NCBI GenBank assembly: GCA_022797935.1
Contig: JAAWLO010000002.1
Coordinates: 20,037-84,036, forward strand
Reading direction: 5' to 3'
Length of the DNA stretch: 64,000 nucleotides
From: Oscillibacter sp.
GTDB taxonomy: Bacteria; Bacillota; Clostridia; Oscillospirales; Oscillospiraceae
Made by a program: the position numbers and the translations under genes
The notes under the pieces: generated by a model
Seen by the model: the letters and a program-made list of their open reading frames with translations, nothing else
What the model was told of the DNA's origin: nothing
Databases searched by the model: none
Shown here: positions 19,883-24,678 of the stretch, in pieces
Layout of the letters: the number at the start of each line of letters is the position of its first letter
Position numbering within the stretch: the stretch's first letter is position 1

Positions 19883-21592
19883 ATGGCAGTGATTGGAATC
19901 GATCTGGGAACCACCAACAGTCTGGCCTGTGTCTTCCGGAAGGGCAGAGCGGAACTGATTCCAAACGGCTTGGGCGCTTACCAGACCCGAAGCGCCGTCA
20001 GCCTTCTGGAGGATGGGACGGTTCTCACCGGCGCGGCGGCGGCGGAACGTCTGGTGACCCACCCGGAGACCTCAGCGGCCTCCTTCAAAGTCTGGATGGG
20101 GACGGAACGGACCGTCCGGCTGGGGGAGCGGGACTTTACGCCGGAGGAGCTGTCGGCCTTTGTTCTCCGGCAGCTGAAGGCGGACGCGGAGCGTTATCTG
20201 GGGGAGGAGGTGCGGGAGGCTGTCATCAGTGTCCCGGCTTATTTCAACGACAACCAGCGCTGTGCCACGAAACTGGCCGCCCAGCTGGCGGGGCTGACGG
20301 TGGAGCGCCTCATCAACGAGCCCTCGGCTGCGGCGCTGTACCACCGGCAGGCGGCGGGAAGCGGCGACGGGCAGATGATGGTGGTGGACTTCGGCGGCGG
20401 CACGCTGGACGTGAGTCTGGTGGAGTGCTTTGAAAATATCATAGAAATCACGGCCATCGCCGGGGACAACCGCCTGGGGGGCAACGACATTGACCAAGCG
20501 GTTGCCCGCCGCTTCTGCCAGGAAAATGGGCTGGTGCTGGAGGAGCTGCCTCCTGCCGCCCAGGCGTCTCTTCTGGGGCAGGCGGAGACGGTGAAGCGGG
20601 TGCTGTCCGCCGCCCCGGCGGCGGTAATGGCCCTCCAGACGGAGACGGGGCGCTGGAGCTTTACCCTGACCCGGCCATTGCTGCGGGAGCTGTGCGCCCC
20701 CGTGTTCCGCCGTGTGGGGGAAGTCATCCGCCGGGCGCTGCAGAACCATGGACGGGAAAGCCGGGTGGATCAGGTGGTCCTGGTGGGCGGGTCGGCCCAG
20801 ATGCCGGTGTTCGGCGATTTTTTGGAGGAGCTTTTTGGACGCCGCCCCGCTGTGGCCGCCCAGCCTGGGGAGACCGTCGCGCTGGGCGTGGGCCTGTGCG
20901 CGGGCATCAAGGAGCGGGCTCAGGACCTGCGGGACCTGGTGATGACGGACGTCTGTCCCTTTTCCCTGGGGGTGGCCACCTACAGTCACGCCCGCGACAA
21001 GACGCCGCACATGGCGTTCCTCATCCCCCGCAGCAGTATGCTGCCCGCCAGTCACCAGCAGACCTTCTACACGCTGTTCCACAACCAGAGGGCCCTGCGT
21101 TTTGAAATCTACCAGGGTGAGGGCTACTACGCTTCGGAGAACCTGAAACTGGGAGAACTGGAGGTGCAGGTGCCGCCAGGGCCTCCGGGCGAGCAGTCCG
21201 CCTGCGTTACCTTTACGTATGACATTGACGGGGTGCTCCATGTCAGCGCCCGCAGCAGCGGCGGGGACTACCGGGACCGGCTGATTCTCAATCCCCGTCT
21301 CCGGCTCAGCGGCGAGGCCCTGGAACAGGCGCGGGCACGGCTGGAGGAAGTCCGGCTGGCCGCGCGGAACGAAGGGGACCGGCTGCTGACGGAGCGGGCC
21401 CTGCGGCTGTACGAGGAGCTTCCCCCCACCCGGCGGGATGAGGCCGCCTGGCTGCTTCAGCGCTTTCAGATAGCGGAAGAGGGGGACCGGATTGAGCGGG
21501 AAAAGGCCCGGCGGGCTCTGGCAGAAGGCCTGGACCGCCTGGAGGAGTGGCTGCACAGGGATCCCTTCGGCTTTTGGCCGGAGGAGGAGTAA
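19883..21592 (+). CDS. hscC: HscC-like Hsp70 family chaperone
   Basis: IGIDLGTTNSLACVF, VISVPAYFNDNQR, VVDFGGGTLDVSLVE, VVLVGGSAQMPVF, VMTDVCPFSLGV, LINEPSAAAL; 569 aa, shorter than DnaK; resembles E. coli HscC from memory. Confidence 0.88.
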   Translation: MAVIGIDLGTTNSLACVFRKGRAELIPNGLGAYQTRSAVSLLEDGTVLTGAAAAERLVTHPETSAASFKVWMGTERTVRLGERDFTPEELSAFVLRQLKADAERYLGEEVREAVISVPAYFNDNQRCATKLAAQLAGLTVERLINEPSAAALYHRQAAGSGDGQMMVVDFGGGTLDVSLVECFENIIEITAIAGDNRLGGNDIDQAVARRFCQENGLVLEELPPAAQASLLGQAETVKRVLSAAPAAVMALQTETGRWSFTLTRPLLRELCAPVFRRVGEVIRRALQNHGRESRVDQVVLVGGSAQMPVFGDFLEELFGRRPAVAAQPGETVALGVGLCAGIKERAQDLRDLVMTDVCPFSLGVATYSHARDKTPHMAFLIPRSSMLPASHQQTFYTLFHNQRALRFEIYQGEGYYASENLKLGELEVQVPPGPPGEQSACVTFTYDIDGVLHVSARSSGGDYRDRLILNPRLRLSGEALEQARARLEEVRLAARNEGDRLLTERALRLYEELPPTRRDEAAWLLQRFQIAEEGDRIEREKARRALAEGLDRLEEWLHRDPFGFWPEEE

Positions 21593-21603
21593 AGGAGATT
21601 GCC

Positions 21604-24600: not shown

Positions 24601-24678
24601 TTTGCGGAGTTTGCGTCGGAGAGCCCGGTAAAAGCCCGGCCTTACGAGGATATTCGGGCGGAATTGATTCCGGAGTGA
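21604..24678 (+). CDS. Large J-domain-like protein (about 1024 aa) with variant HPE motif
   Basis: N-terminal [50 protein letters not shown]; remainder not recognised; immediately downstream of the Hsp70 gene. Confidence 0.8.
   Translation: [1024 protein letters not shown]

Follow-up and report, generated by a model that had tools for sequence, protein, structure and literature searches.

The locus comprises two genes on the forward (+) strand of the 64-kb window (i.e. the whole stretch of DNA that was analysed). The first (19883..21592) encodes a 569-aa Hsp70 (P0002; Pfam HSP70, E 1.6e-103) and the second (21604..24678), supported by its open reading frame, its AF2 model and its homologues, encodes a giant J-domain protein of 1024 aa (P0001). 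The gap between the two is 11 nt, with AAGGAG at 21592-21597, upstream of the start of the J-protein gene. A sigma-A-type promoter (TTGAAA - 17 nt - TATAAT; 19801..19829, +), which is a consensus match only (11 of 12 positions), lies ahead of the Hsp70 gene, and a strong intrinsic terminator with a 16-pair hairpin and a T-rich tail (24697..24731, +) lies behind the J-protein gene, so that the two genes are read, from these predicted signals, as a single two-gene transcript. The coordinates, protein sizes, gap and promoter reported in the first-pass annotation were all correct on re-checking, and its claim that a CIRCE element is absent holds for the entire 64-kb window with up to three mismatches allowed. 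Just past the terminator follow a ribonuclease of the barnase type (Pfam Ribonuclease, E 6e-20), its N-terminus resembling that of a lipoprotein, and a barstar (E 1e-17); their genes (24753-25019 and 25012-25644, - strand) are convergent to the pair and absent beside related loci. In the host genome (2.69 Mb, 84% complete), the best matches to DnaK and DnaJ lie elsewhere on this contig, beyond the window. Contig 23 carries another HscC-type pair (locus L032), with a J protein for which a membrane segment is predicted.

E. coli has three Hsp70s, among them HscC, whose function is poorly understood. In the tree, 58 rows including E. coli HscC and P0002 are split from DnaK and HscA with a support of 100/100. 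P0002 lacks the GrpE signature loop (DnaK 290-295) and the D211 loop, has the helix-B deletion, and with its 569 aa fits the length range of HscC; absence of the GrpE loop, deletion of the D211 loop, the helix-B deletion and a length of 550-580 aa are the hallmarks of HscC (PMC8215388). The 76-101 deletion is found in P0002 as well, but this one is common to the host's own DnaK. T11, K70, E171, T199, R167 and P419 are all retained, while the Q378 position is Cys and the D477 position Thr (DnaK numbering). R167 and Q378 are the DnaK residues that bind the aspartate of DnaJ (PMC8215388), and R167 is retained in nearly all HscCs examined. E. coli HscC resembles P0002 in having the same deletions and in keeping R167 and P419, but differs at position 378, which is Gln there. 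Compared with the DnaK-DnaJ-GrpE system, the pair shares the ATPase core, the docking arginine (R167) and the J-domain fold, whereas DnaJ has HPD, and P0002 has neither the GrpE loop nor the D211/D477 contacts found in DnaK. The tree and the hallmark deletions thus bear out the earlier assignment, and show, as far as sequence comparison reaches, that the 569-aa Hsp70 belongs to the HscC type with its ATPase residues intact. Within the HscC clade of P0002, Cys stands in place of DnaK Q152 in 24/24 cases and of Q378 in 22/24; both positions are close to the J-docking/linker site. Linker residue 391 is Met in P0002 and Leu in E. coli HscC; Met391 distinguishes the soluble type within the order but not across the class, where it is also found with membrane-type J partners.

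Residues 1-54 of P0001 (21604..21765, +) form a J-domain of the DjlB/DjlC class, according to the AF2 model, fold matches (Ydj1, 5vso, prob 0.99, rmsd 2.2) and hhalign (E 2.5e-13 against DjlB/DjlC). On the Pfam DnaJ model it scores 20.5 bits, below the cut-off of 27.8, but since E. coli DjlB (21.1 bits) and DjlC (19.3 bits) score equally low, such a weak score is normal for the class. Its tripeptide at residues 31-33 (21694..21702, +) reads HPE, which the first-pass annotation had presented as an oddity. That view has to be given up, since DjlB and DjlC both read HPE, and a 2026 review names these two proteins and describes HPE as the sole replacement that seems to be tolerated (PMC13254874). 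Of the 73 HscC-adjacent J proteins sampled, 72 have E in third position and one has D, while the first residue is H in 56 and mostly N, S or R in the others (one protein reads DKE). In the host, HPD is found in DnaJ and in one further DnaJ-like protein, and together with the survey this indicates that the glutamate, more than the histidine, marks the class of HscC partners. A local mutation is ruled out as the origin of HPE, glutamate being class-wide; HPE is a signature of HscC-partner J proteins and, as such, known biology. The ATPase of HscC is stimulated by DjlC (PMC8215388; PMC13254874), while DnaJ, CbpA and HscB do not stimulate it (PMC8215388). The natural variation of the tripeptide across the 73 J proteins (first H, N, S or R, second P, third nearly always E) provides a ready set for testing the requirements of the motif.

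A scan of GTDB genomes returned 29 P0001-type loci, labelled as Oscillospiraceae, Lachnospiraceae and relatives, mostly from MAGs but including Flintibacter muris DSM 110149. An HscC gene is adjacent at 20 of the 28 scorable loci, and the C-terminal repeat of P0001 occurs in the same seven order genomes as the HscC clade of P0002 (counted in two almost identical sets of some 394 genomes each), although these pairing and co-occurrence counts lack phylogenetic independence. The pairing recurs in many relatives and is more than chance, which agrees with the earlier reading of a dedicated, co-conserved pair; the flanking genes are common to close relatives only. Four copies have a missing or decayed J motif and none of these has an adjacent HscC (Fisher p 0.003, with loci that are not independent and one copy that is a short fragment). 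The J-domain is gone or its motif lost in the giant copies L063:6824-9952, L070:6992-9883 and L060:1893-5111 (the last reading EAE), L063 and L070 being natural J-less copies. The hosts of L062 and L067 have a P0001-type J protein with HPE, but HscC of other branches only, in non-adjacent positions. All 12 host genomes tested carry further Hsp70s that match P0002.

Behind the J-domain, the AF2 model of P0001 (underlying alignment of 29 rows, mean pLDDT 86) predicts a disordered acidic linker (residues 56-88; 21769..21867, +; pLDDT < 50), followed by a helical, solenoid-like region without a family match (residues 95-480; 21886..23043, +) and three alpha/beta domains on the same strand, i.e. 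A (residues 484-672; 23053..23619, +), B (residues 676-825; 23629..24078, +) and C (residues 860-1024; 24181..24675, +). B and C form a tandem repeat (hhalign E 1.1e-14 between the two) and reach a pLDDT of 91.6 when modelled together; domain A was considered as a third copy and rejected, having no sequence link to either. The conserved C-terminus has invariant residues also outside the J-domain. For the approximately 950 residues behind the J-domain, none of the Pfam, PHROG and PADLOC libraries had a matching family. Fold searches at E<=0.001 were negative, both for the full-length model against PDB and viral models and for B plus C against PDB. The credible fold matches of P0001 are to J-domains alone, with high probability but weak E-values, and the J-domain is the sole part with relatives in Pfam or among solved structures. 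The earlier statement that the C-terminus is of no known family therefore holds across all family libraries searched, and it is here, in a soluble giant partner with an unrecognised C-terminus, that the apparent novelty lies.

The predicted solubility of P0001 sets it apart from the smaller partners. This contrast, like the membrane-type pair elsewhere in the host genome, had been overlooked in the first-pass annotation. With transmembrane segments called by hydropathy only, such a segment is predicted in all 36 HscC-adjacent partners below 800 aa, as well as in DjlB and DjlC, versus none of the 32 P0001-type J proteins (a few of them truncated by contig ends). The maximum 19-residue hydropathy is 0.86 for P0001, compared to 2.39 for DjlB and 1.99 for DjlC, and by this measure P0001 does not have their C-terminal membrane anchor. 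DjlB and DjlC are thus like P0001 in their N-terminal HPE J-domain and their gene linkage to hscC, but unlike it in being tail-anchored proteins of ~ 480 aa, versus 1024 aa without a membrane segment, and once the J-domain is removed P0001 has no significant similarity to them. The ~ 600-aa membrane-type pairs of the same genus (L032; L037-L047) have the same gene order, with the J protein (reading HPE, RPE or RPD) encoded after the HscC-type Hsp70, yet they differ in their separate HscC clade, their one predicted transmembrane segment and their unrelated C-terminus. Size by itself does not define the P0001 family, since other Clostridia (L191, L195, L203, L205, L206) have TPR-type partners of 836-1094 aa beside HscC; these have a PE J-domain and, in four out of five cases, no membrane segment, as in P0001, but their C-terminus consists of TPR repeats. 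Outside the J-domain, P0001 has no detectable similarity to either the TPR type or the 600-aa type. A helical module shared by HscC partners behind the J-domain was rejected as well, because the extended hhalign matches vanished once the J-domain was removed. It seems most likely that P0001 and P0002 form a cytosolic HscC system, and the soluble-type and membrane-type pairs of the host probably act at different cellular sites.

Following these results, the best explanation, which we consider probable, is that of a dedicated HscC-type Hsp70 machine with a soluble, target-binding J protein. The J-domain of P0001 would dock on the interdomain linker of HscC, where Glu33 would take the place of the DnaJ aspartate opposite the conserved Arg167 and trigger ATP hydrolysis, as DjlC presumably does, and nucleotide exchange would proceed without GrpE. 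The flexible acidic linker would tether the J-domain to a soluble scaffold, made up of the helical region and the three alpha/beta domains, and give it the reach to HscC acting on a target held by these domains. The scaffold would bind particular cytosolic targets and hand them to HscC; that the C-terminus selects the target is inferred by analogy with other class C J proteins. A more specific version sees in the C-terminus a hitherto undescribed cytosolic client-recognition module, through which an Hsp70 system that is mostly membrane-bound became soluble and limited to few clients. This version is tentative and leaves us with more doubt than conviction; it involves a tandem alpha/beta repeat for which no counterpart was found among solved structures.

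The main rival holds that the C-terminus has an activity of its own (either enzymatic or structural) and that HscC maintains or remodels P0001, or the complex it belongs to, without receiving clients from it. Since the C-terminus persists without a J-domain in L063 and L070, it may indeed have its own function; it is also large, multidomain and conserved with its invariant residues, and no known client-binding family was recognised in it. However, neither family nor fold searches recognised a catalytic family there, most copies retain both the J-domain and the adjacent HscC, and the TPR arrays that other HscC partners have in this position are typical protein-binding scaffolds, which makes this rival rather unlikely as compared to a target-binding J protein.

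A second possibility is a degenerate pseudo-J-domain (type IV), which would not trigger ATP hydrolysis and would only dock on, or compete for, the Hsp70. In all systems tested, stimulation is lost when HPD is changed to HPN or QPD (PMC8215388). The Pfam score of P0001 is also below the cut-off, but the scores of DjlB and DjlC are just as low, and HPE is the tripeptide of DjlC, itself a stimulator of HscC (PMC13254874). Type IV implies a non-conservative replacement in HPD together with lost Hsp70 stimulation, whereas the change from D to E is conservative and class-wide (PMC13254874). With the glutamate kept in 72/73 HscC-adjacent J proteins and motif decay confined to copies that have no HscC beside them, a pseudo-J-domain is very improbable. 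A mobile or anti-phage module, instead of a housekeeping chaperone, is hardly credible as a reading of the two genes. Their patchy occurrence (about 2% of the order genomes) and the varying neighbours between loci could be cited in its favour, but no PADLOC or PHROG match was obtained, P0001 was unmatched in 72,556 plasmid and 50,697 phage records, and the adjoining genes are those of a GH18/SLH protein and the barnase-barstar pair.

The locus also bears on HscC in general. One and the same genome links the HscC engine and the HPE J-domain to a membrane-type and a soluble-type partner, and other genomes link them to TPR-array partners. Since these natural partners differ in what follows the J-domain, a comparison of their clients offers a way to test the function of HscC.

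Some variation in the make-up of the clusters was also observed. Two giant P0001-family J proteins accompany a single HscC, either in tandem or flanking it, at L035:7421-13920, L053, L054, L055, L056 and L068, for which a division of targets is possible. A DUF4261 protein is encoded between HscC and the J protein at L052:5997-6944 and L054:5948-6931, and a DUF4317 gene stands ahead of the cluster at L053:803-1930; in E. coli, djlB and djlC are each preceded by a DUF1266 gene. In the class sample, one further genome holds, at locus L204 (G666:C60), a piece of the C-terminal repeat that is truncated, contains stops and lacks a J-domain, and the HscC neighbour found in that genome is a membrane-type J protein.
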